Shown piece after piece: positions 37,367 to 56,039 of a DNA stretch of 64,000 nt (position 1 is its first letter; every line of letters begins with the position of its first letter). A model generated the notes under the pieces. The model saw only the letters and a list, made by a program, of their open reading frames with translations. It searched no databases and was not told the origin of the DNA. Source of the DNA: Occultella gossypii. Its GTDB lineage: Bacteria; Actinomycetota; Actinomycetes; Actinomycetales; Beutenbergiaceae. The position numbers and the translations under genes were made by a program. Where the stretch lies: assembly GCF_019947135.1 (NCBI RefSeq), contig NZ_JAGSHT010000013.1, positions 248,001 through 312,000 on the forward strand, written 5' to 3'.

Positions 37367-38227
37367 GTGAGCATCCAGTCCCAGATCCAGGCGAAGCGCG
37401 ACACGCTCGCCCCGTCGATGCGCCGCGTGGCCGATGCGATCCTGGCCGACCCGAGCCTCGTCCTGGAGGAGACGATCTCCGAGCTGGCACGTAAGTGCGC
37501 CACATCGGAGACCACGATCGTCCGCTTCTGCCGGACGCTCGGCCTGGCCGGATACGTCCAGCTCCGGCTCGCCCTGGCCACCGAGGTCGGCCGCGAGGGT
37601 GCCCGGCGGTCCCCCGCGGCGACCTACGGTTCGGACATCTCCGCCGGCAGCACACTGGAGGAGGTCGTGGCGAGCATCGGCTTCACCGAGAACCTCGGCA
37701 TCGAGGAGACCATCAACAGCCTGGACATCGCCGAGCTCGGCCGGGTGGTGGACGCCATCGACGCCGCGGCCCGGATCTCGGTCTACGGCGTCAGCGCGAG
37801 CGGCTGGAGCGCCGCCGACCTGCACCGCAAGCTGTTCCGGATCGGCCGGGTGGCCTACTCGTTCGCGGACGGGCACGACGCCGTCACCTCGCTCGGCCTG
37901 ATGGGTGCCGGCGACGTCGCGGTCGGGTTCTCCCACCGGGGCACGACGGCGGAGGTGGTGCGGTTCCTCGAGGCCGCCCGGGAACGGGGGGTGACCGCGG
38001 TGGCGATCACGAACGCCGCCGACTCTCCCGTCGCCGCAGCGGCCGACCTCGTACTCCGGACGGCGGTCCGGGAGTCACCGTTCCGCTCCGGAGCGATGGC
38101 CTCCCGTACCGCGCAGTTGCTGATCGTGGACTGCATCTTCGTCGCGGTCGCCCAGCGCCGGATGACCGAGACGGTCGACGCCCTGCGCGACACCCACGAC
38201 GCCGTCGCCCAGTTCCGGGACAACTGA
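37367..38227 (+). CDS. MurR/RpiR-family transcriptional regulator
   Basis: The 286-residue protein has an N-terminal RpiR HTH ([20 protein letters not shown]) and a C-terminal SIS domain (from about 130: [20 protein letters not shown]) that binds a sugar phosphate. In Escherichia coli MurR senses MurNAc-6-P; the neighbouring murQ makes that ligand likely here. The serine hydrolase gene begins 3 bases after its stop, so they form an operon. GAAGGG precedes GTG 37367. Confidence 0.85.
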
Positions 38228-38230
38228 GCG

Positions 38231-39412
38231 ATGTCACGCGATTCCGTGTCGAGCCCCGCCGAGCAGCGGGACGCCGGACTCGAGCCCGCCCGGACTGCTG
38301 CCCTGCAGGGGCTGCTGGACTCGGCCACCCGCAACGCCGCCGCCGGCCCGGCCCCGGTCGGAGCAGCCGAGCCCGTTCCGGGCACCGCCGGGGCCGAAGC
38401 GCTGATCGCCCACCGCGGGCGGGTGATCGCCCGCGCCCGGGCGGGGTACGCCACGCTGTTCGCGGCCGACGGCGCACTACTCCCGACGCAGGAACGGCGC
38501 CCGCTGCCCCCGGAGCCGGTGTTCGACATCGCGTCCCTGACGAAGATCCTGACCACGGTCACCGCCCTGATCCAGGTGGACGCCGGCGTCCTCGACCTCG
38601 ACCGACCGGTGGCCGATCACCTCCCCGAGTTCGCCGTCGACCGCACCCACGAGCGGATCAGCCCCCGGCAGCTGCTCACCCATACGTCCGGCCTGCCGCC
38701 GGTGCTGCGCCTGTGGGAGGTGCCCGGCACCCGTGCGGACCGTGCCCAGCACGTCCTGCGCACGGAACTGTGCTCCGAACCCGGCTCGGCCCACGCGTAC
38801 TCCTGCGTGGGCTTCATGGTGCTCGGCCTGCTCCTCGAGCACCTCACCGGGCGAGGGTTGCCCAGCCTCCTGACGGACACCGTCACCGGGCCGCTGGCGA
38901 TGACGAGCACCGGCTACGACCCCACCAGCGCGGGCGACCGGGTGGTGCCGACCGAGTACCAGTCCGTCCCCGACCGCGGCCTCGTGTGCGGCACCGTCCA
39001 TGACGAGGCCGCCTGGAGCCTGGGTGGCTCCGGGAACGCCGGGGTGTTCAGCACCGGGCCGGACCTGGTCCGGTTCGCCGCTGCCCTCGGCGCCGACGGG
39101 CCGGGGCTGCTCAGCGAGGACTCGCTGACGCTGCTGCGTCGGGACGTGCTCCCTGCGTCCGAACGGGACCGGGTCGGGTACGGGCAGGCGCTCGGCATGC
39201 GCCTCGGGGACGCCACGTTCATGGGCACCGGTGACCCGGCCGTGATCGGGCACACCGGGTTCACCGGCGCCTCGCTGGTGATCGACACCGAGGCGGACCT
39301 GGCCGTCGTGCTGCTGACCAACCGCGTGCACCCGGTCCGGACCGCGTTCGATGCCGGGCCGCTACGTCGCGCGGTGACCGGACTGGCCCGGGAGCACGTC
39401 GCTCAGGCCTGA
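38231..39412 (+). CDS. Serine hydrolase of the beta-lactamase class C family
   Basis: The 393-residue enzyme has the SxxK motif ASLTK (S102, K105) and the Tyr motif as HAYSCVGFMVLG (Y-S-C rather than Y-S-N). HTGFTG stands for the third motif. There is no signal peptide, so it is probably cytoplasmic. Such enzymes can be D-Ala-D-Ala peptidases or esterases; beside murQ and nagZ, hydrolysis of imported muropeptides or of lactyl esters is plausible but unproven. It is coupled to the RpiR gene and overlaps murQ at its 3' end (convergent, 10 bases). Confidence 0.78.
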   Translation: MSRDSVSSPAEQRDAGLEPARTAALQGLLDSATRNAAAGPAPVGAAEPVPGTAGAEALIAHRGRVIARARAGYATLFAADGALLPTQERRPLPPEPVFDIASLTKILTTVTALIQVDAGVLDLDRPVADHLPEFAVDRTHERISPRQLLTHTSGLPPVLRLWEVPGTRADRAQHVLRTELCSEPGSAHAYSCVGFMVLGLLLEHLTGRGLPSLLTDTVTGPLAMTSTGYDPTSAGDRVVPTEYQSVPDRGLVCGTVHDEAAWSLGGSGNAGVFSTGPDLVRFAAALGADGPGLLSEDSLTLLRRDVLPASERDRVGYGQALGMRLGDATFMGTGDPAVIGHTGFTGASLVIDTEADLAVVLLTNRVHPVRTAFDAGPLRRAVTGLAREHVAQA

Positions 39413-40332
39413 GCGTCCAGGACCCCGCCGAGCCGGCCGCCGGCCTCGGCGAGCAGCCGTTCTGCCGCGGCCCGGTCCAGGCCGCGCGCCACCATGATCG
39501 CGGCGACCGGGACCCGCTGACCGGAATCGGTCAGGGCCTGCGCGGCGACTCGGGGGTCCGCGCCCGTGATGGTCGCGACCAGGCGCTCGGCCCGTGCCCG
39601 GAGCTTGACGTTGCTGACGGACAGATCGACCATCAGGTTCCCGTAGGTCTTGCCGAGCCTGATCATCACGCCGGTCGAGATCATGTTCAGGACCTGCTTC
39701 GTGGCGGAGCCCGCCTTCAGCCGGGTGGATCCGGCGAGCACCTCCGGGCCCACCTCGACCTCGATCGGCAGGTCCACGGCGGACCCGAGCTCGGAGGCGG
39801 TGTTGCAGGCCAGGCCGACGGTCAGGGCGCCGGCGGCGCGCGCCGCCCGAACCGCGCCGAGCACGAACGGGGTGCGCCCGCTGGCGGCGATCCCGACGAC
39901 CGTGTCGGTCGCGGTGACCCCGAGGCCGGCGATCTCCTGGGCGCCGAGCTCGGCAGAGTCCTCCGCACCTTCGACGGACTCGAACATGGCACCGCGCCCG
40001 CCTGCGATCACGCCCAGGACCTGGCCCGGATCCGTGTGGAACGTGGGCGGACACTCCGAGGCGTCCACCACTCCCAGCCGCCCCGAGGTGCCGGCACCGA
40101 GGTAGATCAGCCGCCCACCCGACTCCATCCGGGCCGCGGCGGCCTCCACGGCGGCAGCGACCTGCGGCAGCACGGCCCGCACCGCGAGCGGCACCCCGGC
40201 CTCGGCCTCGTTCATCGCCCGCAGGGCGTCCAGCGTCGGGATCGCGTCGAGCCGTCGGTACCGCTCGTCGATCCGCTCGGTCTCGAGCAGGTCGGTCCGA
40301 TCGCCCGTCACCGGTTGGGGGTCAGCCACCAT
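39403..40332 (-). CDS. murQ: N-acetylmuramic acid 6-phosphate etherase
   Basis: The 309-residue SIS-domain protein has LIYLGAGTSGRLGVVDASEC then PPTFHTDP, the MurQ signature with an active-site Glu, followed by GGRGAMFESVEGAEDS with the second Glu, TVVGIAASGRTPFVLGAV and STRLKAGSATKQVLNMIS. It removes the D-lactyl ether of MurNAc-6-P, giving GlcNAc-6-P. AAGAGG lies just before ATG 40332. It is divergent from the nagZ-like gene. The presence of murQ commits this locus to amino-sugar salvage. Confidence 0.95.
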   Translation of the reverse strand: MVADPQPVTGDRTDLLETERIDERYRRLDAIPTLDALRAMNEAEAGVPLAVRAVLPQVAAAVEAAAARMESGGRLIYLGAGTSGRLGVVDASECPPTFHTDPGQVLGVIAGGRGAMFESVEGAEDSAELGAQEIAGLGVTATDTVVGIAASGRTPFVLGAVRAARAAGALTVGLACNTASELGSAVDLPIEVEVGPEVLAGSTRLKAGSATKQVLNMISTGVMIRLGKTYGNLMVDLSVSNVKLRARAERLVATITGADPRVAAQALTDSGQRVPVAAIMVARGLDRAAAERLLAEAGGRLGGVLDAQA

Positions 40333-40359
40333 GTACCTCTTCTTCCTGAATCAAACGAA

Positions 40360-40418
40360 TTCAAGTAAACCAGCAGTTGCGCCTCGATGAAAATGATTGA
40401 CGCCTTCTACTTGAAGTA
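40360..40418. promoter_or_regulatory. murQ-nagZ divergent control region with paired TACTTGAA motifs
   Basis: TACTTGAA occurs on the minus strand at 40367-40360 and on the plus strand at 40408-40415, where it extends to the dyad TACTTGAAGTA (40408-40418). A possible nagZ -35 (TTGACG) is at 40397-40402. Candidate MurR sites; the motif is not one I know from the literature. Confidence 0.4.
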
Positions 40419-40445
40419 CGCCAATAATTGACCCACGATGGGCAC

Positions 40446-41990
40446 ATGCGTCACCACCGCGGCTCCGACCGCTCGCTCGAGTCCCTGGCCCATTCCGTTC
40501 TGTGGCCCGGCTTCACCGGAACGCGGGCACCCGACTGGTTGCTGCGCGCACGCGATGCCGGAGCGCCGGGGGCGCTGCTGTTCGCGCACAACATCGACCC
40601 CGATGACGCGGACCAGCTGTCCCGCCTCGTCGGCGAGCTGGATGGCACGCGCGGCAGCCTCGTCGGAGCCGACGAGGAGGGTGGCCTTGTGACCCGGCTG
40701 CACGCCCGGGACGGGTCCCCGAGCCCTGGCCATGCGGTACTGGGTCGCCACGACGTGATTGCGGACACCGAGACCGTCGCCGAGCAGATCGGTGCCGAAC
40801 TCGCGCGCCACGGCATCGCCATCGATCTGGCGCCCGTCGCCGATGTGAACAACAACCCGGCGAACCCCGTCATCGGCAGCCGCTCGTTCGGAGCCGATCC
40901 CGAGCTGGTGGCGCGGCACGCCGCCGCCTACGTGCGCGGACTGCAGCGTGCGGGCACCGCGGCCTGCGCGAAGCACTTCCCCGGCCACGGCGATACCACC
41001 ACCGACTCCCATCTCGCCGTCAGCAGGATGGAGGTGAGCGCCGACGAGCTCGAGGAGATCCACCTCGCCCCGTTCCGGGCCGCGATCGAGGCCGGCGTCC
41101 GGTCCGTGCTGACGGCGCACATCATCGTGCCCGTCCTCGGCCCGGAACCCGCGACCGTGAACCCCCGAGCGTTGTCGATGCTGCGCGGGATGGGCTTCGA
41201 CGGGCTGATCATCTCCGATGCCGTCGAGATGGAGGCCATCGCGAGCACACTCGGGATCGGGCCGGGTGCGGTCGCGGCGCTCGCCGCCGGCGTGGACCTC
41301 GTCTGTCTCGGCAATCAGGGCGCGGACCCGCGCACGCCCGAGAACCCGCGCCCGGACGAGTCCGCCTACCGGACCGTGCACACCGCCGTCGTCGACGCGC
41401 TCCGCTCGGGATCGCTGCGCGCGGAGCGCCTCGAAGAGGCGGCCGAGCGGATCGCCGCCCTGCGTACCTGGGTCACCGCCCACCGCACGGGTGGGAGCCC
41501 GGACCTGGCATCGACCACCTCGACACCGGACACCCCGACCGCCGCACGGAACGCCCCGACCACCACCGCGGTACGGGTGGCCGCGCACGCCTGCGACGTC
41601 CGCGGCGACGTCCGGCTCCGCGCGGGCGTGCCGGTCACCGTGATCGACGCCCGGGTGCTGCGCAACCGCGCCGCCGGGCGGGAGGCCGACCTGGTGGGTC
41701 GGGCGCTGGCCGCGCGCCGGGCGATCAGCCACCACCGGTTCGACGGCGATGACACCGCCGAACTGCTGCGCGCGGACCCGCAGGGCGAGGTCGTGCTGGT
41801 GGTCGACCAGCCGCACATCGCCGCCGCGGAGCGCCACGCGCTCACCGACGTGCTGGCCTGGCACCCGGACACCGTGGTGGTCCGCCTGGGCTGGCCCGGA
41901 GACCTCGGCGTGGACCTGCCCCGGCTGGTCACCACGCACGGCTCGAGCGCCGTCAGCGCGTCCGCCGTGGCCGACCTCCTGCTGGGGTGA
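40446..41990 (+). CDS. nagZ: Glycoside hydrolase family 3 beta-N-acetylhexosaminidase (NagZ-like)
   Basis: The 514-residue protein has a GH3 N-terminal barrel (1-350) with RGSLVGADEEGGLVTRL, DLAPVADVNNNPANPVIGSR, the NagZ loop KHFPGHGDTTTDSH carrying the His-Asp catalytic pair, and GLIISDAVEMEAI with the nucleophile Asp. A C-terminal alpha/beta domain (about 370-514) is longer than in small NagZ enzymes. It has no signal peptide, so it acts on imported GlcNAc-containing muropeptides. ATG 40446 is used; the frame is open to 40428 only. It ends at a bidirectional terminator. Confidence 0.85.
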   Translation: MRHHRGSDRSLESLAHSVLWPGFTGTRAPDWLLRARDAGAPGALLFAHNIDPDDADQLSRLVGELDGTRGSLVGADEEGGLVTRLHARDGSPSPGHAVLGRHDVIADTETVAEQIGAELARHGIAIDLAPVADVNNNPANPVIGSRSFGADPELVARHAAAYVRGLQRAGTAACAKHFPGHGDTTTDSHLAVSRMEVSADELEEIHLAPFRAAIEAGVRSVLTAHIIVPVLGPEPATVNPRALSMLRGMGFDGLIISDAVEMEAIASTLGIGPGAVAALAAGVDLVCLGNQGADPRTPENPRPDESAYRTVHTAVVDALRSGSLRAERLEEAAERIAALRTWVTAHRTGGSPDLASTTSTPDTPTAARNAPTTTAVRVAAHACDVRGDVRLRAGVPVTVIDARVLRNRAAGREADLVGRALAARRAISHHRFDGDDTAELLRADPQGEVVLVVDQPHIAAAERHALTDVLAWHPDTVVVRLGWPGDLGVDLPRLVTTHGSSAVSASAVADLLLG

Positions 41991-42013
41991 GACCGCCCCC
42001 GGCGGCCTCACCC
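41985..42013. terminator. Bidirectional terminator between nagZ and the ABC operon
   Basis: GGGTGAGACCGCC and GGCGGCCTCACCC pair at 12 of 13 positions around a CCC loop. The stem overlaps both stops of the convergent genes ending at 41990 and 42008. Confidence 0.65.
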
Positions 42014-42859
42014 GGCCAGACGCCGTCGGGGGTTCGGCGCGGCTGCCAGCAGTCGCCGCGTGTACTCGTGGGAGGGTGCGTCGATCACCTGTTCGCTCGA
42101 CCCACGCTCGACGACCTTGCCGTGGTACATCACCAGGGTCTGCGCGGAGTACGCACGGGCTGATCCCAGGTCGTGCGTGATGTACAGGACCGCGAGTTCC
42201 TCGGTCCGGCGCAGCTGGTCCAGCAGATCGAGCATCCCCTTCCGGATCGTCACGTCCAGCATCGAGACAGGTTCGTCCGCGAGCAGCACCTTCGGCTCGG
42301 CAGCGAGCGCGCGGGCGAAGGAGATCCGCTGCCGCTCCCCACCGGAGAGCTCGTGCGGGAACCGGTGCAGGTACCGCTCGGCCGGTGCCAGCTCCACCTT
42401 CCGCAGTAGCGCGAGGCTCCACTCCTCCACCTCGTCCGCGCTCATCGGACCGCCATGGATCCGCAGGGCCCGGCCCAGGGTGTAACTGACCCGGTGCAGC
42501 GGGTTCAGCGAGGAGAACGGATCCTGCAGGGTCATCTGGACGGTGCCGGTGTAACGGATGAAGGCTCGGCCACGGGTCGCCGAGACCGGATCACCGTTCA
42601 GCAGGAGCTCGCCGGAGGTCAACGGCATCAGCTGGGCGAGGAGCCGGCCCACGGTGCTCTTGCCGGAGCCGCTCTGACCCACGAGGGCCGTCACCTGACC
42701 GGCGCGCAGCTCCAGCGAGACGTCGTCCACGGCGCGGAAGTACTCCCGGCCGAACACCCCCGCCCGCTTGTTCGTGCGGAAGTCCTTCACCAGGTTCCGT
42801 GCCTCGAGCACGACGCGGCCCTGCTCGGGCTCGTGCGGATCCATGACGTCGGTGCTCAT
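42008..42859 (-). CDS. Peptide/muropeptide ABC transporter ATPase (DppF-like)
   Basis: The 283-residue ATPase has Walker A VGQSGSGKST, a Q-loop (TVQMTLQDPFSSLNPLHRV) typical of the OppF/DppF branch, signature LSGGERQR and Walker B KVLLADEPVSMLD. The last gene of the operon, it overlaps the fused gene by ATGA (42856-42859). It forms the second nucleotide-binding half of the importer. The usual C-terminal zinc/FeS-like cysteine tail is not present. Confidence 0.9.
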   Translation of the reverse strand: MSTDVMDPHEPEQGRVVLEARNLVKDFRTNKRAGVFGREYFRAVDDVSLELRAGQVTALVGQSGSGKSTVGRLLAQLMPLTSGELLLNGDPVSATRGRAFIRYTGTVQMTLQDPFSSLNPLHRVSYTLGRALRIHGGPMSADEVEEWSLALLRKVELAPAERYLHRFPHELSGGERQRISFARALAAEPKVLLADEPVSMLDVTIRKGMLDLLDQLRRTEELAVLYITHDLGSARAYSAQTLVMYHGKVVERGSSEQVIDAPSHEYTRRLLAAAPNPRRRLAG

Positions 42860-44742
42860 ACGAGGGCTCCCATGTCGGCGAGTGAGGCGAGCAGGGCCTG
42901 CGTGTACGGATGGCGGGGCTCGGCATAGACCTCGAGGGCCGGCCCGTACTCGACCAGCCGGCCACGCTGCATCACGGCGATGCTGTCCGAGACCTCCAGC
43001 AGCAAGGACAGGTCGTGCGTGGTGAAGATGATCGCGAACCCGTACTCGTCCCGTAGCGCCATCACCTGGTCGAGCACCTCGCGTTGGATCAGCAGGTCCA
43101 GCGCCGTGGTCGGCTCGTCCATGATGATCACGTCCGGCTCGAGCACGAGCGCGATGGCGATCGCGACCCGCTGCTTCATCCCGCCGGAGAGCTCGTGCGG
43201 ATAGGCCGAGACCCGGTCGGAGTCGATGCCGACCTTCTCCAGCATCGTCCGTGCCAGCGCCTCCCGTTCACGGGCCGGCATGGTCGGCCGGTGCACGCGG
43301 AGCACGTCGTCGAACTGCGCCCCGACGCTGGTCACGGCGTTCAGCGCGTTCATCGCACTCTGGAACACGATGGCGATCTCGTCCCAGCGGTAGCCGCGTA
43401 GCTCCTCCGAGGACAGCCCGAGCAGATCGATGGCCTCCGCCGCGCCCGGGTCGGCGCCGCTCGACGCACCCGGACGGGCGCGCGCGGCCCGGTGGTAGGT
43501 GATGGATCCCCCGGTCACCTGCGCCGGGTTGCGGAGCAGCCGGGTGATCGCGTTGGTGAGGGTGGACTTGCCGCTCCCGGACTCCCCCGCGAGGCCGAGG
43601 AGCTCGCCGCGGTGCAGGGTGATCGAGACGTCGTCGACGGCGTGCACCACCTGGTCGATGCTGGGGTAGTCGACCTTGAGGTTGCGGACCTCGATGATCG
43701 GGGCCCCGGGCACGTCGATCGGGCGGATCTGCGCCGCGGCGGCGGCGCTACCCGAAGGCTCCGGCCCCGCCACCTCGTTGACGCCGTCCTCGGACGGGAT
43801 CGACGCCAGGCCCGGCGAATCGACGCCTGAGGCCACGGCCGCGGCGCCGGCGGTGCTGAGCGCGGCCGCCTGCGGCCCGCCGGTGCGTACGGCCCGGCCC
43901 CGGCTCTTGCCGGTGCGCAGCCGCGGGTTCGAGTACTCGTCGATCCCGAAGTTGATCAGGGCCAGGCCGGCCCCGAGGACCGCGATCGCCAGGCCGGGCG
44001 GGACGAACCACCACCAGGCGCCGTACAGGAACGCCTGCGCGCTCTGCGCGAAGTAGAGCATCGACCCCCAGCTCGTGGTCGTCAGCGAGCCGAGGCCAAG
44101 GAAGGACAGCCCGGCCTCGGCCAGGACCGCACCGATCACGGAGAATAGGAAGCCGGAGGCGATCAGTGGCAGGGCGTTCGGCATGATCTCGGAGAAGACG
44201 ATCCGCGTGCGCGACTCACCGGTGGCCCGGGCCGCCTCGACGAACTCGCGTCGCCGCAGCGACATGGTCTGGGCGCGCAGGACTCGGGCCGAGCCGGCCC
44301 ACGAGGTGATCGCGATCACGAACGCCACGGAGATCATCCCCCGTGAGGGCAGGTACCCGGTCAGCACGATCAGCAGTGGCATCCCGGGAACGACCAGGAA
44401 CACCGCCGTGAGGATGTACAGCAGGTCGTCGGAGAGCCCTCGGAAGTAGCCCCCGATGACGCCGACGAGGACCGAGACGATCTGCGAGATGATCCCCGCG
44501 AACAGCCCGACGCCGAGCGAGACGCGGGCGCCGTACACGAACTGGGCGAAGACGTCCTGACCGGTCTGGGTGGTGCCGAGCCAGTGCGCGCCGGACGGCG
44601 GCTGGAGCAGGTCGGTGCCGCTGGCCTGCGGCGAGTAGCTCGTCAGCATCGGGCCGAACACGGCCATCAGCACGAAGAAGATGGCGATGATCAGGCCCGC
44701 GCGCACCTTCCCGGAGGCCGGCACGAGTCGTGAGAGGTTCAT
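42856..44742 (-). CDS. Fused ABC permease (DppC-like) and ATPase (DppD-like)
   Basis: The 628-residue protein combines two normally separate subunits. Residues 1 to about 275 are a DppC permease (LIIAIFFVLMAVFGPMLTSY; EFVEAARATGESRTRIVFSE is the EAA loop). An Ala/Gly/Pro-rich linker (about 280-345) leads to an ATPase with Walker A GESGSGKST, Q-loop FQSAMNALNAVT, signature LSGGMKQR and Walker B VIIMDEPTTALD. The frame is uninterrupted. It lies 2 bases after the DppB gene. The fusion fixes the stoichiometry of the complex and is seen only sporadically in peptide ABC systems. Confidence 0.9.
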   Translation of the reverse strand: MNLSRLVPASGKVRAGLIIAIFFVLMAVFGPMLTSYSPQASGTDLLQPPSGAHWLGTTQTGQDVFAQFVYGARVSLGVGLFAGIISQIVSVLVGVIGGYFRGLSDDLLYILTAVFLVVPGMPLLIVLTGYLPSRGMISVAFVIAITSWAGSARVLRAQTMSLRRREFVEAARATGESRTRIVFSEIMPNALPLIASGFLFSVIGAVLAEAGLSFLGLGSLTTTSWGSMLYFAQSAQAFLYGAWWWFVPPGLAIAVLGAGLALINFGIDEYSNPRLRTGKSRGRAVRTGGPQAAALSTAGAAAVASGVDSPGLASIPSEDGVNEVAGPEPSGSAAAAAQIRPIDVPGAPIIEVRNLKVDYPSIDQVVHAVDDVSITLHRGELLGLAGESGSGKSTLTNAITRLLRNPAQVTGGSITYHRAARARPGASSGADPGAAEAIDLLGLSSEELRGYRWDEIAIVFQSAMNALNAVTSVGAQFDDVLRVHRPTMPAREREALARTMLEKVGIDSDRVSAYPHELSGGMKQRVAIAIALVLEPDVIIMDEPTTALDLLIQREVLDQVMALRDEYGFAIIFTTHDLSLLLEVSDSIAVMQRGRLVEYGPALEVYAEPRHPYTQALLASLADMGALV

Positions 44743-44744
44743 GG

Positions 44745-45731
44745 TCAGCCTTCCTGACGCGTGCGGGGGTCGAGGAACACGTAGACGACGTCGGCCACGA
44801 GGTTCGCGGCGATCACCGCCAGCGAGATGATCAGGAAGAGTCCCTGCATCAGCGGGAAGTCCTGGTTCTGGACCGCCTCGAACAGGGTGTAGCCGACGCC
44901 CGGGTAGTTGAAGATCACCTCGGTGAGCATCGACCCACCGACGACGGCGCCGAGGGAGAGTGCGAACCCGGTCACCGAGGGCAGGATCGCGTTCCGGGCC
45001 GCGTAGTTGACCAGCACCATCCGCTTCGGCAGGCCCTTCGCCTCGGCCATGGTCACGTAGTCCTCACCGAGGACGGTCACCGTCATGTTCCGCATGCTCA
45101 GCACCCAGCCGGCGAAGGAGGCCAGGATGATCGTGATCGCCGGCAGGATGCCGTGATAGAGGACGGAGGAGATGAACTCCCAGTCCCATCCCGGCACCAG
45201 CCCCGGTTCGTAGGCGTGCGAGACCGGGAACCAGCCCAGGTTCACCGAGAGGATCAGGACCAGGATCAACGCCATCCAGAAGTACGGGACGGCGTTGAGG
45301 AAGGTGAGGGCCGGCAGCAGGTGGTCGGTCCAGGATCCGCGCCGCCAGGCCAACACCACGCCGAGCCCGGTGCCGATCAGGAAGCTGATCACCGTGGTGA
45401 TGCCGACCAAGCCGATCGTCCACGGCAGTGCACCCAGCACGATCTCGGAGACCGGGACCGGGAAGAAGCCGATCGAGAGACCGAGGTCGCCGGCCGCCAG
45501 CGAGGTGAGGTAGTCCCAGTACTGCACGTGCAGCGGCGCATCCGTGAGCCCGTAGCTCTCCGCGATCGCGTCCATGGCGGCCGGGTCGATCCGCCCTGAC
45601 AGCCGTTCCACGAGGAGCGCGACGGGATCGCCCGGCATCAGCCGGGGGATCAGGAAGTTCATGGTGAGCGCAGCCCAGGCGATGAACACGTACAGCATCA
45701 CCTTGCGCAGGAGGTACTTCAAGCGGGACAA
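44745..45731 (-). CDS. ABC permease (DppB-like)
   Basis: The 328-residue permease has six or so membrane helices, the DppB N terminus (FLIPRLMPGDPVALLVERLS) and the EAA loop VTMAEAKGLPKRMVLVNYAA. It pairs with the fused DppC-DppD. The start is TTG 45731 with AGAGG close by; an internal ATG at 45695 would cut the conserved first helix. It follows the binding-protein gene across a strong hairpin, which probably lowers its expression relative to that gene. Confidence 0.9.
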   Translation of the reverse strand: MSRLKYLLRKVMLYVFIAWAALTMNFLIPRLMPGDPVALLVERLSGRIDPAAMDAIAESYGLTDAPLHVQYWDYLTSLAAGDLGLSIGFFPVPVSEIVLGALPWTIGLVGITTVISFLIGTGLGVVLAWRRGSWTDHLLPALTFLNAVPYFWMALILVLILSVNLGWFPVSHAYEPGLVPGWDWEFISSVLYHGILPAITIILASFAGWVLSMRNMTVTVLGEDYVTMAEAKGLPKRMVLVNYAARNAILPSVTGFALSLGAVVGGSMLTEVIFNYPGVGYTLFEAVQNQDFPLMQGLFLIISLAVIAANLVADVVYVFLDPRTRQEG

Positions 45732-45765
45732 CCTCTCGGATCGGATTCGGCCGGGTGGCGGACGC

Positions 45766-45793
45766 GGGCGGGCGGCGTGTGCGCCGCCCGCCC
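45766..45793 (-). terminator. Perfect 12-bp hairpin between binding-protein and permease genes (attenuator)
   Basis: GGGCGGGCGGCG, loop TGTG, CGCCGCCCGCCC. It sits just after the binding-protein stop and 35 bases before the permease start, in the middle of the operon, and has no T-run. Likely a partial terminator or a 3'-end stabiliser. Confidence 0.6.
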
Positions 45794-45806
45794 GACCTCG
45801 CTGCGG

Positions 45807-47465
45807 TCAGCCGGCGGGCGTCAGGTTCGTGACGACCAACAGGTTGTCCGGGAACTGGAACGGCGCGCCGAGGGCGTACGGGTCCTCCTCGGTGGGGAAC
45901 CCCTCCCACCGTGCGGTGTTGTACTGGAACCAGTTCGGGGACTGCAGCATCGCGATGACCGGGAGCTGTTCGACCATGATCTGCTCGAGCCCGTCGAACG
46001 CGGCCTGCTGCTCCTCGGGGTCACTGGTGGCCGCGAATGACTCCAGCAGGGCGTCGGCCTCGTCGTCGTAGTAGCGGTTGTAGTTCGAGACGACGGTCTC
46101 GCCCGGGCCGGTCTCGTACTCGGAACTCATCATCGAACGGAACAGCGTGTACGGGGTGAGGCCCATCGCCACGGACGCGATGGTCATCTGGTAGTTGCCG
46201 GAGTTGCGGGCCTCCAGCCATGCCTCGAACGAGACGCCCTGGGGCTCCACGACCACGCCGATCTTCGCGAGCTGCTCCTGGAGCAGGCCGCTCATCGTCA
46301 CCCAGTCCACGTAGCTCGACGGGATCTGCAGCGCGTAGGACATCCGCTCGCCTGCCGGGGTGGTGCGCACACCGTCGCTGCCGAGCACATAGCCGGCCTC
46401 GTCCAGGATGGCGTTCGCCTCATCGACGTCGTAACTGAACTCCGCATCGGCGTACTCCTCGCTCAGCACCGACTCGTAGGCAGGCAACGGCAGCCCGGTG
46501 GGGTGCGCCGGCGGGGTGTACCCCTGCATGGCGACCTCGGAGAGCTGGTCGCGGTCGATGCCGGCGCTGAGCGCCTCGCGCACCGCCACGTCGTCGAACG
46601 GTGCCGTCTGCGTGTTCACGAGCAGGTTCACGAGTCCGTCACCGGGGTACCAGTAGGACCGGTGCTCCGGGTCCCCGGAGACGTAGATCTGGTCGATGTT
46701 GGCGACGAACCCGCCGGACCAGTCGAACTCACCGGCCTGCAGCGAGCTGTTGAACGTCTGGTCGGAGGACGCCGGGTAGCGGACCTGCTCGACCTCGACC
46801 TCGTCGGCGTTCCAGTAGCCCTCGTTCGCGCTCAGTGTGTACAGCTGTTGCCCGAACTGCTCGAGCACGAACGGCCCGGTGGCCACCGGCTCCTCGTTCT
46901 GGAACTCGATCGGGTCGACGTCGGCGAACACGTGCTCGGGGACCATGACGGTGTTCGCGATGGAGGCCTGGAACGCGAACGCGACACTGTTGAAGGTCAC
47001 CTCCACGGTGAGGGGGTCGGTGGCGACCGCCTCGGCAAGGTCGAGCGCACCCGCGTTCGCCGCGGGGTTGTCCCGCATCAGGTTGAAGGTGAACGCGACG
47101 TCGTCGGCGTCGAACGCCTCGCCGTCGGACCAGGTGACGCCCTCCCGGAGCGCGAACGTGACGACCGTGCCCTCCTCGTTGAACTCCATCGACTCGGCCA
47201 GCCAGGGCTGCGCGTCACCGGGCACCATCGGGGTGGCGATCATCAGCGGCTCGTACAGCATGCCCTTGGTGCCCTGGAGCGCCGTCGGGGAGAACGGGTT
47301 GAAGTTCTGCTGATAGGTGTTGGCCGTGTTGGCGTGGATCGTCAGCGGTGCGACCGCGCCGGCGTCCTCGCCCGAGTCGTCGTCGCCGCCGCCGGTACAG
47401 GCCGACAGGGCGAGGGTGCCGGCCGTCAGCACGGCGGCCAGACGGATGAACCTCGGGGTTCTCAT
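45807..47465 (-). CDS. Solute-binding lipoprotein of the peptide-type ABC importer (SBP_bac_5)
   Basis: The 552-residue protein has a signal with lipobox LALSAC and then a Gly/Asp linker. The SBP_bac_5 fold follows: MLYEPLMIATPMVPGDAQPW, GVTWSDGEAFDADDVAFTFN, RYPASSDQTFNSSLQAGEFD. It would bind solute outside the membrane and pass it to the permeases. With namZ, murQ and nagZ around it, MurNAc, muropeptides or wall peptides are the likely ligands; the sequence alone cannot say which. Confidence 0.9.
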   Translation of the reverse strand: MRTPRFIRLAAVLTAGTLALSACTGGGDDDSGEDAGAVAPLTIHANTANTYQQNFNPFSPTALQGTKGMLYEPLMIATPMVPGDAQPWLAESMEFNEEGTVVTFALREGVTWSDGEAFDADDVAFTFNLMRDNPAANAGALDLAEAVATDPLTVEVTFNSVAFAFQASIANTVMVPEHVFADVDPIEFQNEEPVATGPFVLEQFGQQLYTLSANEGYWNADEVEVEQVRYPASSDQTFNSSLQAGEFDWSGGFVANIDQIYVSGDPEHRSYWYPGDGLVNLLVNTQTAPFDDVAVREALSAGIDRDQLSEVAMQGYTPPAHPTGLPLPAYESVLSEEYADAEFSYDVDEANAILDEAGYVLGSDGVRTTPAGERMSYALQIPSSYVDWVTMSGLLQEQLAKIGVVVEPQGVSFEAWLEARNSGNYQMTIASVAMGLTPYTLFRSMMSSEYETGPGETVVSNYNRYYDDEADALLESFAATSDPEEQQAAFDGLEQIMVEQLPVIAMLQSPNWFQYNTARWEGFPTEEDPYALGAPFQFPDNLLVVTNLTPAG

Positions 47466-47510
47466 GTGGTTGACCTTTCGATGGGTGGAGCGGGGGGAAC
47501 AAAGGTGACG

Positions 47511-48503
47511 TCAGTGGTCCAGGTCGGCACGCAGCACGTCGAAGCGCCGGGTGATGCGGAAACCGGACCGCAGGTAGAGGTGCCCGGCAGGTGAGTCCTC
47601 GCCGGTCCACAGGAACCAGGCGCTCTGGGCACCCTCGGCGCGCATCCGGGTGAGGGTCTCGTGCAGCAACACCTTTCCGAGGCCAGTGCCGCGCGACGTC
47701 TCGTCCACCCCGTACGGGCCGAACCGTTCCCGCAGGCCGCGGTACGCGCCGTAGGTGGAGAAGCCCACGACGGGACCCTCGGGGTGGCGCGCCAGGAGCA
47801 CCCTGTCGATCCGTCCGTGCTGCAGCACGGAGTCCCGGACCGCCTCACCCCAGTCCGGGGCCAGCCGCTGCGCGGCGAAGGAGATCACCTCGGGCAGATC
47901 ATCGGGGCGGGCGGCTGCGAACGCGTACCCGTCGGCGACCCGCGCCGCACGCAGGTCCAGCACGTCGGACGGCGTCGCGTAGTCGGCGAGATCGAGGCTC
48001 ATCGCCGCGGCCGTGTACAGCCGCCGGAAGCCGGCCCGCTCGAACAGCCGGGCGGCGTCCGGGTAGGCGGCAGTGTCCAGGCCGGGCACGAAGTATGCCA
48101 GCGGGTAGGCCGCGTAGTTGACCCAGTGGGCACCCTTGCCCGCGAGGAACGCCCCGGCCCGCCGCACCAGTTCGGTGCCGATGCCCTGCCTGCGGGCGTC
48201 GGGCCGGACGCAGCCGATGGTGATCCACCCGCCGTCGGGATCGGGCCCGATCCCTCGCCCGGCACGGACCGCGTAGACGAAGCCCTGCGCCTGACCGGTG
48301 GCCTCGTCCACGGCGACGATCAGGCCGTCGGGGTCGAAGTTCGGGTCCAGCAGGACGGTGTGGGTGAACCAGTCCTCGCTGACGGCGTCGCGCGGCATCG
48401 CGACCGTGGTGAGCTCGGCGAGCCGGGCGGCATCACCGGGCCGGTGCGCACGATAGGTGACCTGCAAGGGAATGACCTTTCCGATCTGTTCGATGGTGCT
48501 CAT
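47511..48503 (-). CDS. Tandem double-GNAT acetyltransferase
   Basis: The 330-residue protein holds two GNAT domains: the first (about 10-165) with acetyl-CoA loop PDARRQGIGTELVRRAG, the second (about 180-325) with ETSRGTGLGKVLLHETL. Both loops keep the Q/RxxGxG/A pattern, so both could bind acetyl-CoA. It lies between the PIG-L deacetylase and the binding-protein gene. Opposing deacetylase and acetyltransferase genes in one operon suggest acetyl-group editing of an amino sugar, which is inference. ATG 48503 is the likely start. Confidence 0.8.
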   Translation of the reverse strand: MSTIEQIGKVIPLQVTYRAHRPGDAARLAELTTVAMPRDAVSEDWFTHTVLLDPNFDPDGLIVAVDEATGQAQGFVYAVRAGRGIGPDPDGGWITIGCVRPDARRQGIGTELVRRAGAFLAGKGAHWVNYAAYPLAYFVPGLDTAAYPDAARLFERAGFRRLYTAAAMSLDLADYATPSDVLDLRAARVADGYAFAAARPDDLPEVISFAAQRLAPDWGEAVRDSVLQHGRIDRVLLARHPEGPVVGFSTYGAYRGLRERFGPYGVDETSRGTGLGKVLLHETLTRMRAEGAQSAWFLWTGEDSPAGHLYLRSGFRITRRFDVLRADLDH

Positions 48504-48549
48504 TGACGGCAGCAGGACGGCGTGTGCCGCCCGCTCCCGAAGGGTCGGT

Positions 48550-49245
48550 TCAGTTCAGGGGCGCCATGCCCCAGGTCCGCCCGGAGGAGAGGGCAACGGC
48601 GTGGGGCACGCCGGCGAGGCAGCCGCGGGTGATCATCTGGGCCGAGTAGAAGTCGATGTAGCGGAAGCCGTAGGTCTCCCCGCGAGCGAACGCTTGACCG
48701 CTGATGGCGTCGGTCCAGAGCCGGTGCGCCTCCGCCGAGATCTCCACGAACAGGTCCGCGTCGAAACCGGTCGCGTCCTCCCAGTTCTCCGTGAACAGCA
48801 GGCGGCCGACGCCGTGCCGGGTGGTTTCGTCCTTCCACCCGGGCAGGCCGGCCAGGTAGCGCGCCCGCTCGGCGAGGATCGAGGCGTTCTCGTGGTCGGT
48901 GTGGATGCTGCGCCGCCAGTGCGCGAGCAGCGTGGTCGGCCTGACCTCGCGGATGAGGTCGGCGACCCGTTCGGCGACCGCGTCGTCGGCGGTGAGGAAC
49001 CCGTCGGAGATGTCATCGAAGATGACCACCTCGGCGCCGATCCCGGCCGCGAACGCTCGCGCTTCGGCGATCTTCTGCTCGCGGTAGTCGGCGGCGGACA
49101 TCCGAGGGTGCCCCCGCTCCCCCGGCGTGAGTGCCACGAGCACGGACCGGCCGCCGTCCAGCACGTTCTGCGCGAGCAGCGGTCCGGCGGCGAGGTCCAT
49201 ATCGCCGATGTGACCGCCCACGGCCATGATCGTCTGAGGTGACAA
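48550..49245 (-). CDS. PIG-L-family deacetylase with variant metal motif
   Basis: The 231-residue protein has the PIG-L fold. The N-terminal motif reads AVGGHIGDMDLAAG in place of AHPDDxE, keeping a His and two acidic residues, and the distal motif is intact (WRRSIHTDHENAS, the HxDH pair). Family members remove acetyl from GlcNAc-type sugars with zinc. The altered first motif is typical of a subgroup. AAGGA is 8 bases before the TTG start. It follows namZ by 35 bases in the salvage operon. Confidence 0.8.
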   Translation of the reverse strand: MSPQTIMAVGGHIGDMDLAAGPLLAQNVLDGGRSVLVALTPGERGHPRMSAADYREQKIAEARAFAAGIGAEVVIFDDISDGFLTADDAVAERVADLIREVRPTTLLAHWRRSIHTDHENASILAERARYLAGLPGWKDETTRHGVGRLLFTENWEDATGFDADLFVEISAEAHRLWTDAISGQAFARGETYGFRYIDFYSAQMITRGCLAGVPHAVALSSGRTWGMAPLN

Positions 49246-49280
49246 CGGATTCGTCCTTCGTTCGGGTTCGGCGGCGGTGT

Positions 49281-50471
49281 TCAGGGGTAGAGCAGTGCCT
49301 CCGGCGGCACGATCGGCGTCGGTGGACCGGCGGCGAGGATCGCACTCAGGTCCGCGCCGCGATCGATTCCCTCGCGCAGGGCCGTCGAGCCCCAGAGGAG
49401 GTCGATGAAGGGCGGGCGGCCCGGCTGCGGAGGCAGCCAGATCGACTCCCCGGGATACAGGGCGGCGACCGCCCGGAGCACGGCCACGCCGGTCGCGATC
49501 GGATCGAACGCCGCGACATCACGCACGTGCAACTGGGCGCCGTGCACCACGTCGCCGTGCCACTTGCTGAACGTGGGGCGGAAGACGGCCTCACGGAACG
49601 CGACACCGGGCAGGCCCTGCTCGGACAGCGCGCCGGCCAGGCGCCCGTCGGTCCAGGACGCCCCGAACAGCTCGAACGGCTTCGTGGTGCCGCGGCCCTC
49701 CGAGAGCACGGTGCCCTCCAGCAGGCCGATGGCGCCGAAGACGGTCGCGGTGGTCAGCGTGGGCATGTTCGGCGACGGCATCACCCAGTCGTCGTGCGGG
49801 CCCTGGCGCTGCCGGTCCCAGCCGGCCAGCTCGATCACCTCGAGATCGGCGGCGGCGCCCACGGCATCGGGCACGTGGGCCGAGTTGAACCACCGGGCGA
49901 GCTCGCCGAGGGTGAGTCCGTGCTGGAGCGGGATCGAGACCCGGCCCACGAAGCTGGCGCAGGACGGATCGAGCCCGGGCCCGGTCCGGACCAGACCACC
50001 CAGGGGGTTCGGCCGGTCGAGCACCACGATTCGGATCCCGACCCGCGCCGCGGAGCAGAGCAGGTCGAAGAGCGTCCAGGTGTAGGTGTAGAACCGAATG
50101 CCGATGTCCTGGAAGTCCACCAGGATCGTGGCCACCCCGGACTCGCGCAGCAGTCCGTCGAGCCGCGGCCCGTCGGAGCGGTAGGTGTCCACCACCGGCA
50201 GGCCGGTGGCGAGGTCGACGCCGTCGCCCTCGCTCTCGCCCGCCTGCACCGCACCCCAGTAGCCGTGCTCCGGCGTGAAGATCGTGGTCAGCTCCACGCC
50301 CGTGGCCAGCAGCGCGTCCACACCGCGGCGCAGGTCCGCCGTGACGGACGTGTAGTTCGCACAGAGGCCGGCGGGACCCCGGCCGATCAGACCGGGTTCG
50401 GCGATCGCCCGGCTCAGGCCCGTTCGGACCCGCGCCACATCGTCCACCTCGACCACTGGCCGTTCCCCCAC
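49281..50471 (-). CDS. namZ: Exo-beta-N-acetylmuramidase (DUF1343/GH171)
   Basis: The 396-residue protein carries the DUF1343 blocks: LTTIFTPEHGYWGAVQAGE, TILVDFQDIGIRFYTYTWTL, IVVLDRPNPLGGLVRTGPGLD, SEGRGTTKPFELFGASW and FRPTFSKWHGDVVHGAQLHV. NamZ of Bacillus subtilis releases MurNAc from the non-reducing end of glycans. No signal peptide is visible here, so it may act after uptake, unlike the secreted Bacillus enzyme. It is the first gene of the seven-gene operon and has a dyad-bearing promoter. The start is GTG 50471. Confidence 0.9.
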   Translation of the reverse strand: MGERPVVEVDDVARVRTGLSRAIAEPGLIGRGPAGLCANYTSVTADLRRGVDALLATGVELTTIFTPEHGYWGAVQAGESEGDGVDLATGLPVVDTYRSDGPRLDGLLRESGVATILVDFQDIGIRFYTYTWTLFDLLCSAARVGIRIVVLDRPNPLGGLVRTGPGLDPSCASFVGRVSIPLQHGLTLGELARWFNSAHVPDAVGAAADLEVIELAGWDRQRQGPHDDWVMPSPNMPTLTTATVFGAIGLLEGTVLSEGRGTTKPFELFGASWTDGRLAGALSEQGLPGVAFREAVFRPTFSKWHGDVVHGAQLHVRDVAAFDPIATGVAVLRAVAALYPGESIWLPPQPGRPPFIDLLWGSTALREGIDRGADLSAILAAGPPTPIVPPEALLYP

Positions 50472-50481
50472 TCGTCCTCGA

Positions 50482-50521
50482 CTGTGTAAGTACGCTACAC
50501 AGATCGTCAGACTAGGGTCAA
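50482..50521 (-). promoter_or_regulatory. Promoter and palindromic operator of the namZ-ABC operon
   Basis: On the minus strand -35 TTGACC (50521-50516), an 18-base spacer and -10 TAGCGT (50497-50492). The -10 is embedded in a perfect dyad, CTGTGTA-N7-TACACAG (50482-50502). A protein bound there would block transcription. Confidence 0.55.
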
Positions 50522-50525
50522 TTAG

Positions 50526-50544
50526 TTACGCGCAGGTTACGCGC
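50526..50544. repeat. Tandem TTACGCGC pair upstream of the namZ promoter
   Basis: TTACGCGC occurs at 50526-50533 and 50537-50544, 11 bases apart (one helical turn), just upstream of the -35. Candidate activator site. Confidence 0.4.
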
Positions 50545-50580
50545 GCTCCCCACGGGCGCCGCACCTCGTGGAGCATGATC

Positions 50581-52617: not shown

Positions 52618-52655
52618 GCGGGTTCGAACTCCAGTGGGTGTGGTGGTGGGTGCGG

Positions 52656-54446
52656 TCAGACGATCCGCGGGTCGTCCAGGTCGAAGTAGACGCGGTACGG
52701 CATCCGTTCGGCGATCTCCGACAGCGGCCGCAGGTCACCGAACGGCAGCCGTGCCGTCCCGACGCCGACGGGCGTGTACCGCACCCCCTCCCCCGGCTCG
52801 AAGGCCTGCTCGAGATCGACCATCTCCCAGGGCGTCGGGAGCGAGATAGGCATGGTCCAGTCCGCCCTCTGCGCCAGCACGACCGGGCCGTGGGCGAACG
52901 CGACCCGGTTCGGGTGCCGGGCGTCGACCGGCAGGACCCGCAGGCCGGCGCCGATCGTGACGTCGACGACGTCGCCGTCGCGCCAGTCCCGGTCGATGAC
53001 CAGCCAGTCACCTCCGGTCGCCACGGCGTTCACCGGCTCCCCGTTCACGGCCGCCGAGAACCCCTCGCTCCACGACGGGACCCGCAGCCGCAACGCCAGG
53101 CGCCCGGAGCCGTGCAGGGTCAGGCGGGCATCGTCGGTCTGCGGGAAGGACGTCTCGAGGGTGAGGCCGAACGCCCGTCCCTCGTGTTCCCAGGAGACCG
53201 TCGAGGGCACGTAGAGCAGCACGGCGAGACCGTCGTCCGCCGCGTAGTAGAGGAGGTTCGGCAGTTCGGAGACGCACTGGAGGTATGTCCCCGAGCAGCA
53301 CGGCCAGTCGTCCCAGTGCGGCAGCTTGGTGGCGACCCCGAGCCGGTAGTCCTGGTAGTAGGGCGTCCGGCCACCCGGCCGGACTGGGGTCACCGCGCCG
53401 ATCCCGGAGTAGACGAGCTGCTCCACCCAGTCCCCGTAGCGGGCCAGCCCCGTGTATGTCAGCAGCGCCGTCGAGACCTTGAATGCGGCCCACGACCCGC
53501 ACACGATCTCGGCCGAGTCGGTGCGCCACTCGAGGCTGCGCCCGAGCGCGCCGTCCTCCGGGAGGGTGAACTCGCTCGGTCCGTAGCCGCCGGTGGCGTA
53601 GGTCTGCGTCGTGGTGAAGTACGTATGCGCATTGCGCACGATCTCCAGGTACCGGTCCTCGCCGGTGACCTCGTACGCCGCGGCGGCCGAGGCGAACGTG
53701 TTCAGGTGCGAGTACGCGTGCAGCCAGGCCGGGACCGGCCAGGCCCGGCCCGGCTGCGGCTCCGTCAGGAAGCGGTCCCAGTAGGCGTCGTAGTGCCACT
53801 CCCGCGCGAACTCGCCGACCCGGTCGTCGGCGCCGGCCAGCCAGGCACGGTGGAGATTCTCGGCGAGCGTGTACCACTCGAGGGTGCGGGCATGGCTGGT
53901 CGGACCGATGCGGCCACCGGCGAAGTCGTGCGCCGACGGCGTCGGGCGGGCTCGGTCGAAGGTCCGGTCCGCCCAGGGCACCGTCCGTTCCAGGAGCGCG
54001 AGCGCCGGCTCGTGCCCGGTGAGGGTGAACGTGTCGACGAGTCCGCAGATGAGCTTCTCGTAGCCGTACAGGGACATCCGGACGTCACCGTCAGGACCGA
54101 CCGTCTCCGCGAAGCCGTCGACCAACTCGATCGCCCGCTCGCTCGCCGCCGTCACGCCGGCGGTGGCGCCGAGGCGGGCGAGTCCGCTGACCCACTGCCC
54201 GAACGTGGGCTCCGAGGTCACGGCGGACCAACCCGTCAGGGGTGCGCCGGGAGCGTCCTGGCCGGCCGCCGTCCGGAAGCCGTGCAGGACGTCGTCCGGG
54301 TCCATGGCGAGGTAGGTGGCCGCGGCGTCCGCGATGCGCTCGGCCAGTGGCCCGCTCTCGATCCGGACCCGTCCGGTGTGCCCGAGCGGTTGCAGCACCA
54401 CCTGCGCCCGGATGCGGTCAGATCCCTTGCTTCGTGTCACTGACAA
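52656..54446 (-). CDS. DUF1680/GH127-clan glycosidase
   Basis: The 596-residue (alpha/alpha)6-barrel protein belongs to PF07944. Motifs are SLYGYEKLICGLVDTFTLTG, PAWLHAYSHLNTFASAAAAY, TDSAEIVCGSWAAFKV and DDWPCCSGTYLQCVSELPN. The Cys-Cys pair and Glu-Ile-Val-Cys correspond to the zinc/thiolate site of GH127, but with one extra residue between Glu and Cys compared with the other GH127 here, so the specificity may differ. The TTG start at 54446 has AAGGG 7 bases upstream. It is intracellular and probably acts on a second arabinofuranoside linkage. Confidence 0.82.
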   Translation of the reverse strand: MSVTRSKGSDRIRAQVVLQPLGHTGRVRIESGPLAERIADAAATYLAMDPDDVLHGFRTAAGQDAPGAPLTGWSAVTSEPTFGQWVSGLARLGATAGVTAASERAIELVDGFAETVGPDGDVRMSLYGYEKLICGLVDTFTLTGHEPALALLERTVPWADRTFDRARPTPSAHDFAGGRIGPTSHARTLEWYTLAENLHRAWLAGADDRVGEFAREWHYDAYWDRFLTEPQPGRAWPVPAWLHAYSHLNTFASAAAAYEVTGEDRYLEIVRNAHTYFTTTQTYATGGYGPSEFTLPEDGALGRSLEWRTDSAEIVCGSWAAFKVSTALLTYTGLARYGDWVEQLVYSGIGAVTPVRPGGRTPYYQDYRLGVATKLPHWDDWPCCSGTYLQCVSELPNLLYYAADDGLAVLLYVPSTVSWEHEGRAFGLTLETSFPQTDDARLTLHGSGRLALRLRVPSWSEGFSAAVNGEPVNAVATGGDWLVIDRDWRDGDVVDVTIGAGLRVLPVDARHPNRVAFAHGPVVLAQRADWTMPISLPTPWEMVDLEQAFEPGEGVRYTPVGVGTARLPFGDLRPLSEIAERMPYRVYFDLDDPRIV

Positions 54447-54457
54447 CGGGATTCCCT

Positions 54458-56025: not shown

Positions 56026-56039
56026 CGTCGTCTTTCCTC

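Follow-up and report, generated by a model that had tools for sequence, protein, structure and literature searches.

A compact gene locus of Occultella gossypii probably serves to import and salvage the amino sugars of peptidoglycan. The locus lies at positions 37367 to 50471 of the 64,000-nucleotide stretch that we analyzed (contig NZ_JAGSHT010000013.1, positions 248,001 to 312,000; hereafter the window), which in our numbering of the 5.84-Mb, 39-contig genome is C35:248001-312000. We assign a probability of roughly 0.7 to a reading, drawn from sequence comparison, in which an ATP-binding cassette (ABC) importer would carry a disaccharide or short oligosaccharide of N-acetylmuramic acid (MurNAc) and N-acetylglucosamine (GlcNAc) into the cell for cleavage in the cytoplasm. 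This reading draws on the identities and conservation of the genes, on a NamZ and a NagZ-like protein that seem to lack signal peptides, on a sugar-type binding protein, and on the presence and linkage of two kinases.

Gene content of the salvage locus

All eleven genes of the locus fall within 37367-50471 and gave domain or family matches well above chance in profile searches, which bore out the gene list of an initial annotation made from the sequence alone, including its fused DppC-DppD and its double GNAT. Seven of them form an operon on the minus strand in the order NamZ, PIG-L, double GNAT, binding protein, DppB, fused DppC-DppD, and DppF. The first gene (49281..50471) encodes a NamZ exo-N-acetylmuramidase of glycoside hydrolase family GH171, with PF07075 (NamZ_N, 1.1e-59) at residues 35-239 and PF20732 (NamZ_C, 2.2e-38) at 244-380; its solved relatives include 4k05 (1.5e-45) and 4jja. 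A protein of the PIG-L/LmbE fold (48550..49245; PF02585, 1.4e-17), in which HIGD replaces the usual HPDD, and a double-GNAT acetyltransferase (47511..48503; PF13508 and PF00583, two stretches each), which is a candidate glucosaminide N-acetyltransferase, come next. The importer genes encode an SBP_bac_5 lipoprotein of the chitin-oligosaccharide-binding kind (45807..47465) with a lipoprotein signal (LSAC) at its N terminus, a DppB-type permease (44745..45731; PF00528, 3.4e-43), the fused DppC permease and DppD ATPase (42856..44742; PF00528 at 91-276 and PF00005 at 370-546 in one frame), and a DppF-type ABC ATPase (42008..42859; PF00005, 2.4e-28). The fusion is a single open frame of 628 amino acids, and relatives give one continuous match to it.

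The remaining four genes begin with a MurR/RpiR-family regulator (37367..38227, plus strand) that combines HTH_6 (PF01418, 1.9e-19) with SIS (PF01380, 3e-23). Next on the plus strand is a serine hydrolase of the beta-lactamase fold (38231..39412; PF00144, 8.6e-58) with SLTK, YSC, and HTG where the motifs of this family usually lie; PBP4B, its top NCBIfam match, reached 90 bits of a cut-off of 385. MurQ, the MurNAc-6-phosphate etherase (39403..40332, minus strand), exceeds the NCBIfam equivalog cut-off of TIGR00274 (342.3 bits, cut-off 302) as well as that of PRK05441 (381 bits, cut-off 168). The fourth gene (40428..41990, plus strand) encodes a GH3 beta-N-acetylglucosaminidase whose best solved match is 6k5j (5e-53) and whose KH-x-PGHGD...DSH signature (KHFPGHGD...DSH) is kept in alignments to 6k5j and 3tev. 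We call it NagZ-like rather than NagZ because its 164 bits against PRK05337 fall below the 207-bit cut-off. Signal peptides were judged by eye throughout, and on this basis NamZ and the NagZ-like protein lack a hydrophobic N terminus, in agreement with the initial annotation; none was evident in the serine hydrolase either.

The importer and its binding protein

The importer had been labeled a dedicated Dpp system. An ABC importer is present, but its binding protein is of the chitin-oligosaccharide kind and not the dipeptide kind. Its top solved matches are Vibrio chitin-oligosaccharide-binding proteins (from 6lzu, 3.9e-75, to 1zty, 1.5e-71), followed by 4pft/1vr5 (2.5e-52) and 4pfu (9.9e-42), with one of these entries named mannoside-binding, whereas DppA (1dpe) reached only 3.8e-18. 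In bits, the chitin-oligosaccharide binders scored 257, AppA 83, and DppA 69, and the match to NCBIfam DppA_dipep was 62 bits against a cut-off of 1005, so the protein is not a DppA. We consequently rejected the label of dipeptide importer, and the system is probably not a peptide importer.

Passages of PMC8449061 identify 6lzu as VhCBP and D365 and W363 as key residues of its ligand site, and these served for comparison. When VhCBP residues were mapped by hand on the alignment (chain numbering is that of the paper plus two), D365 was kept in the window protein and a Tyr stood in the place of W363. The equivalent Asp is present in 16 of 16 sequences, the window's included, and the place of W363 holds Tyr, Trp, or Phe in every one. 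The protein has the appearance of a sugar binder whose second site is altered. From the neighboring genes we infer that its ligand may be MurNAc-GlcNAc or GlcNAc-MurNAc.

Conservation of the locus among relatives

The locus is conserved in four genomes of the genus, O. gossypii included, and recurs with changes in Ruania, a probable Beutenbergia, and Brachybacterium. The names O. aeris (G008), O. glacieicola (G009), Ca. Ruania gallistercoris (G017), and Brachybacterium timonense (G209) are inferred ones, from which those of the other Ruania and Brachybacterium genomes follow, and we take G001 to be Beutenbergia. NamZ was matched in 16 of 24 family genomes, and eight carry the NamZ type of the window. 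Six other family loci of this type (L030 to L035, about 20 kb fetched for each) all contain the seven-gene operon, a NagZ-like gene, and MurR, while the serine hydrolase and MurQ are each found in five; all eleven genes are present in L030-L034. The NagZ-like gene of L033 and L034 is 38% identical to that of the window and lies on the opposite side of NamZ, and in the probable Beutenbergia locus MurR sits within the operon and two binding proteins stand in tandem.

At the order level, NamZ was matched at E<=1e-50 in 66 of 396 genomes. Our wider comparison covered 18 genomes, namely the eight family genomes with the window's NamZ type and ten order-level genomes picked by hand, not counting G085, which falls among them in rank. 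The binding protein, DppB, fused DppCD, and DppF stand beside NamZ in 14 of these 18. The set in G017 is cut by a contig end. In the Brachybacterium genome G095 (L230), DppB and DppCD are missing from sequence free of Ns, and the match to the binding protein runs directly into DppF. G184 has none of the four genes beside NamZ, and G297 gave partial matches only. Among the fetched stretches of the 18 genomes, GNAT occurs in 17, the serine hydrolase in 13, and PIG-L in 8. This joint conservation of the importer with its murQ and namZ neighbors upholds the earlier view of a coherent peptidoglycan amino-sugar salvage locus.

Near the NamZ-importer-MurQ operon of Brachybacterium timonense, we also observed a protein with a lactate racemase N-terminal domain (L118, 7170-8714), which could handle the D-lactate produced by MurQ.

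NamZ proteins with and without a signal peptide

O. gossypii encodes a second NamZ, 46% identical to the first, that has a signal peptide and lies next to a signal-peptide NagZ-like protein (C15; L009, 7324-10641); judged by eye, this pair appears to be the exported counterpart of the pair in the window. The proposal of the initial annotation that fragments are imported intact and dismantled inside is probable for the window locus, but given the second pair, digestion in this organism is not purely intracellular.

To place the window's NamZ among its relatives, we compared 80 NamZ loci (the best 80 of 589 confirmed stretches, from at least 595 listed, at a bit score of 55 or more). Eighteen encode a NamZ without a signal peptide; the 62 others, in which a signal peptide is present or unclear, include L180, which has no open frame. 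In the fetched DNA, GNAT accompanies 16 of the 18 no-signal loci and none of the 62 others, and DppB 11 and none; the counts are 11 versus 4 for MurQ, 10 versus 8 for the serine hydrolase, and 3 versus 2 for BadF, in a comparison that ignores relatedness and whose p-values are not literal.

We also built a tree of 46 NamZ sequences. Its 25 no-signal and 21 signal-peptide rows were chosen by hand from about 70, and two pairs of rows come from the same genome. All but one of the no-signal rows fall outside a set of 22 that holds the 21 signal-peptide rows and a single no-signal row (support 99/98). The no-signal label needs two changes on this tree, one of which concerns a Thermomicrobiales sequence within the signal-peptide set (99/98), and the nearest named relatives of the window NamZ are those of Occultella aeris and O. 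glacieicola (Ruaniaceae). No-signal NamZ genes are found with at least three importers: the type in the window, a divergent Dpp type, seen in seven Streptosporangiaceae loci, and a CUT1 type in Kribbella and probably Microbacterium, of which the L124 binding protein was checked with Pfam and the others are tblastn matches of 24-27%. Judged from these sequences, the NamZ proteins without a signal peptide are an actinobacterial group associated with several ABC importers, an association that exported NamZ mostly lack. A bolder extension, which we offer tentatively and think somewhat more apt to be wrong than right, is that a cytoplasmic NamZ lineage of actinobacteria has at least three dedicated ABC importers for oligosaccharides of the MurNAc-GlcNAc type, independent of the phosphotransferase system (PTS), and that a PIG-L-fold enzyme lacking the customary catalytic Asp performs an undescribed step on these sugars.

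Kinases and downstream enzymes elsewhere in the genome

The initial annotation had reported no MurNAc kinase in the locus and proposed that the kinase step was missing or unfamiliar. The first part holds, since neither family was matched between 37367 and 50471 when the whole genome was searched for AnmK and BadF. Both families are encoded elsewhere in the genome, however, and the second part is not supported. AnmK lies at C31:28086-29225 (1.4e-94) and exceeds the equivalog cut-off of NF007146 (455.8 bits, cut-off 440). It shares a stretch (L007, 8166-14798) with further genes for MurQ and for a MurR-like regulator, the second of each in this genome, and with those for two permeases and a binding protein, all three CUT1-like and named from their translations. 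This AnmK-MurQ2-MurR2-CUT1 cluster is a probable separate uptake locus for anhydroMurNAc or MurNAc.

The other candidate is a MurK-like kinase of the BadF/BadG family, encoded at C35:150177-151247 and separated by about 134 kb from the closer end of the salvage locus. Its best solved match, by a small margin, is 8zo3, an entry named N-acetylmuramic acid/N-acetylglucosamine kinase, which we take to be a Clostridium enzyme. The BadF of G001 matched 8zo3 at 60.5 bits (1.9e-15) versus 38.4 bits for hexokinase, and its gene lies 7 bp from a MurQ gene whose product is 66% identical to the MurQ of the window. BadF relatives also occur in NamZ/MurQ clusters of Actinocatenispora rupis (L119) and, as partial genes, of two Planotetraspora (L121, L133), and they are linked to murQ, anmK, or namZ in G184 and G297, although the G297 match holds one internal stop codon. 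In Brachybacterium, BadF lies within the 20 kb around AnmK in eight of eight genomes examined, accompanied by MurQ2 in seven. More divergent BadF proteins are encoded near MurQ in G002 and G023.

In a BadF tree of 30 rows, the four proteins of the genus group with 12 of the 14 linked rows (93/92), 12 unlinked BadF are set apart (97/99), and two linked rows from Nocardioidaceae fall with the unlinked set. Nine rows held by a first tree were dropped from the second: the two partial Planotetraspora genes, G023 twice, G022, the murQ-near copy of G002, and the second copies of G008, G009, and G010. An intact AnmK, a linked-type BadF, or both are found in 16 of the 18 genomes examined, and in G015 and G017 anmK adjoins nagZ at the NamZ locus itself. 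The anmK of G015, at a syntenic locus (C1:272141-272778; L034, L054, L064), matches in two pieces and is apparently broken. For the steps that follow, the O. gossypii genome encodes one NagB that exceeds its cut-off, along with two NagA-like proteins that fall short of theirs. The MurNAc-kinase step very probably depends on genes that lie outside the locus in this genome. Passages of a preprint (PMC13041923) already list AnmK and MurK for M. smegmatis.

Double GNAT and PIG-L proteins

The top solved matches to the double GNAT were residues 550-765 of 4zm6 (6e-15), a chain named N-acetyl-beta-D-glucosaminidase, and the acetyltransferase 5kga/5kf1 (5kga, 1.7e-12). We take the 5kf1 series to be GlmA, the glucosaminide N-acetyltransferase of cell-wall salvage.

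In the PIG-L protein, HxxD and HxDH are intact and Gly occupies the place of the first Asp of the motif (HIGD for HPDD), as in all 13 sequences compared (the window, L030-L035, L117, L119, L124, L125, L131, and L154). The HIGD form is encoded close to NamZ in four or more families of actinobacteria. The missing Asp is presumably the general base of PIG-L deacetylases. A predicted model (predicted local distance difference test score, pLDDT, of 86) keeps the PIG-L fold; its best matches in E-value are the deacetylases 2ixd, 1uan, and BshB (3e-14 to 1e-13), and the highest query TM-score belongs to GalB (0.82, 2.3 A), a hydratase in which that Asp is likewise absent from the motif. The modeled protein is possibly not a deacetylase. 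Because the Brachybacterium and Streptosporangiaceae stretches gave no PIG-L, we do not count it as core. In the NamZ-CUT1 cluster of Kribbella pratensis, a YdjC-family protein is encoded directly 3' of PIG-L (L124, 15965-16732).

Proposed pathway and alternative explanations

In the pathway that we favor, the ABC system would bring an intact MurNAc/GlcNAc oligosaccharide, not a peptide, into the cytoplasm, where NamZ would take MurNAc and NagZ would take GlcNAc, both from nonreducing ends. The double GNAT would probably re-acetylate de-N-acetylated glucosamine units, and the serine hydrolase would probably remove leftover peptide. Free MurNAc would probably be phosphorylated by the unlinked MurK-like BadF and anhydro-MurNAc by AnmK. 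Under the presumed control of MurR, MurQ would convert MurNAc-6-phosphate to GlcNAc-6-phosphate and D-lactate, after which NagB and the NagA-like proteins could act.

Several observations weigh against this pathway. Passages of PMC8449061 assign N409, F411, R436, and F437 of VhCBP to contacts with the reducing-end (second) GlcNAc, and by hand count the window protein has Ser, Ala, Val, and Val there; because these residues are replaced, the true ligand is a guess. The predicted structure of the binding protein is also poor (pLDDT 38). The BadF of O. gossypii matched 8zo3 at 33.5 bits (2.7e-7) and the hexokinase 2e2n at 31.9 bits, a small margin, and its sole NCBIfam match is a GlcNAc kinase model at 44.9 bits against a cut-off of 370. 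The key fork of the BadF tree (93/92) is below the 95/80 mark of the tree tool and joins long branches, and the rows dropped include the two divergent murQ-near BadF of G002 and G023. According to passages of PMC10465942, T94 and S133-P134-L135 are the positions at which T. forsythia MurK admits the lactyl group. By hand count, the O. gossypii BadF has Gly at T94 and Asp-Gly-Met at S133-L135, and unlinked BadF are much alike, so these specificity positions do not separate linked from unlinked proteins. Lastly, G015 and G021 lack both an intact AnmK and a linked-type BadF; in G021 the locus is complete, but no AnmK reaches the cut-off and BadF is of the unlinked kind only.

A different cargo is conceivable, in which the binding protein takes MurNAc-peptides or disaccharide-peptides in the manner of YejBEF-YepA and the serine hydrolase cuts the peptide inside. 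The importer does have the architecture of the peptide/nickel family (SBP_bac_5, DppBCDF), the PBP4B-matching hydrolase is conserved with it, and passages of PMC9790009 describe YejBEF-YepA as a known muropeptide ABC importer. We nevertheless consider muropeptide import unlikely, since the binding protein is so much closer to chitin-oligosaccharide binders than to DppA or AppA, and since all eleven genes went unmatched to the AmpD and LdcA families in profile and solved-structure comparisons. Moreover, the NamZ and NagZ families act on glycan ends.

The resemblance of the binding protein to Vibrio (GlcNAc)2-4-binding proteins could instead mean that a chitin-oligosaccharide importer, with (GlcNAc)2 or longer chains as cargo, merely sits beside salvage genes. 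This is improbable when NamZ, MurQ, and MurR accompany the importer in several genera and the four second-GlcNAc contacts of VhCBP are not kept. We give still less credence to a kinase step that is truly missing or carried out by an unfamiliar enzyme. The absence of AnmK and BadF matches from the locus, the two genomes that carry the locus without an intact AnmK or linked-type BadF, and the weak match of the O. gossypii BadF to a MurNAc kinase would fit such a gap, but the O. gossypii genome itself has AnmK beside another MurQ, and BadF relatives are linked to murQ, anmK, or namZ in G001, G184, G297, eight Brachybacterium genomes, and the Actinocatenispora and Planotetraspora loci.

Regulatory sequences and neighboring genes

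The gap upstream of NamZ (50472..50580) contains an imperfect palindrome at 50481-50503 that is similar in the other three genomes of the genus and is a possible operator. An 8-base core is common to this gap and the murQ-nagZ gap, with exact agreement in the window and L030 alone. We rejected an operator shared by the upstream regions of murR, murQ-nagZ, and namZ, for which only the namZ palindrome and the inexact core were seen, and a search of the upstream regions for a sigma-70 consensus and terminators matched none.

Across the 109-bp gap upstream of NamZ lies a GH31 gene (50581-52617, minus strand), which was detected in two of the six other family loci (L030 and L031) and not in L032-L035. 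With GH31 beside NamZ in so few of these loci, the glycan genes at 50581-60760 were rejected as part of the salvage unit. By their translations, these minus-strand genes form a separate glycan locus with the GH31-like protein, two large glycosidase-like proteins, and CUT1-like permeases with a binding protein. The translations at 24249-31748 (minus strand) have the look of rhamnose-type sugar catabolism, with a kinase, a dehydrogenase/aldolase, an isomerase-like protein, and a dehydratase.

Relation to known salvage systems

We take ybbC of Bacillus subtilis to be namZ. Passages of PMC5061867 describe the ybb cluster of that organism (murQ-murR-murP-amiE-nagZ-namZ in our naming), with the function of ybbC given as unknown, and the Occultella locus likewise brings together MurQ, MurR, NagZ, NamZ, and an amidase gene. 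In the same passages, the B. subtilis importer is the PTS protein MurP and NagZ and AmiE are extracellular, whereas the Occultella locus has an ABC importer and a NamZ and NagZ without signal peptides. The separate signal-peptide NagZ-NamZ pair of Occultella resembles the Bacillus arrangement.

The MurP-MupG route of Staphylococcus aureus reportedly uses PTS import and a 6-phospho-muramidase. PMC6262408 reports recovery of MurNAc-GlcNAc there by import and cytoplasmic cleavage, which is parallel in logic; for Occultella we propose ABC import, NamZ, and a separate kinase instead. The MurK/GlmA/NagZ set of Clostridium acetobutylicum has a BadF-type MurNAc/GlcNAc kinase (8zo3) and a double-GNAT acetyltransferase (5kf1 series), of which the Occultella BadF and double GNAT are candidate counterparts, and differs in that the Occultella kinase is unlinked to the locus. 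We know of no NamZ or chitin-oligosaccharide-type importer in the C. acetobutylicum set. The Agrobacterium YejBEF-YepA system is also a peptide-family ABC importer used for peptidoglycan recycling, and passages of PMC9790009 describe YepA, whose cargo is muropeptides, as confined to Alphaproteobacteria; unlike YepA, the Occultella binding protein is of the chitin-oligosaccharide kind. With the Vibrio (GlcNAc)2 importer, the Occultella system has in common the family of the binding protein, the key Asp, and the aromatic place, but not the second-sugar residues of VhCBP, and its gene setting is one of peptidoglycan rather than chitin.

The locus is a new variant of known peptidoglycan salvage. 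Among the matches listed in the open-access literature, we found no report of an actinobacterial ABC importer for MurNAc or of a cytoplasmic NamZ, which is a weak negative. The parts are known, and their combination with a no-signal NamZ group and exchangeable ABC importers may be new to that literature. Passages of PMC5061867 state that Streptomyces coelicolor recycles MurNAc through MurQ despite having no MurP ortholog, and the import and phosphorylation of muramic sugars in actinobacteria is therefore a natural question. The locus and its relatives name candidates for these steps: importers of the chitin-oligosaccharide type and of the CUT1 ABC type, a MurK-like BadF kinase, and a cytoplasmic NamZ group. 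The puzzle of the missing kinase raised by the initial annotation is largely solved by the rest of the genome, and NamZ without a signal peptide provides a simple genomic marker of probable uptake of the sugar chain in one piece.

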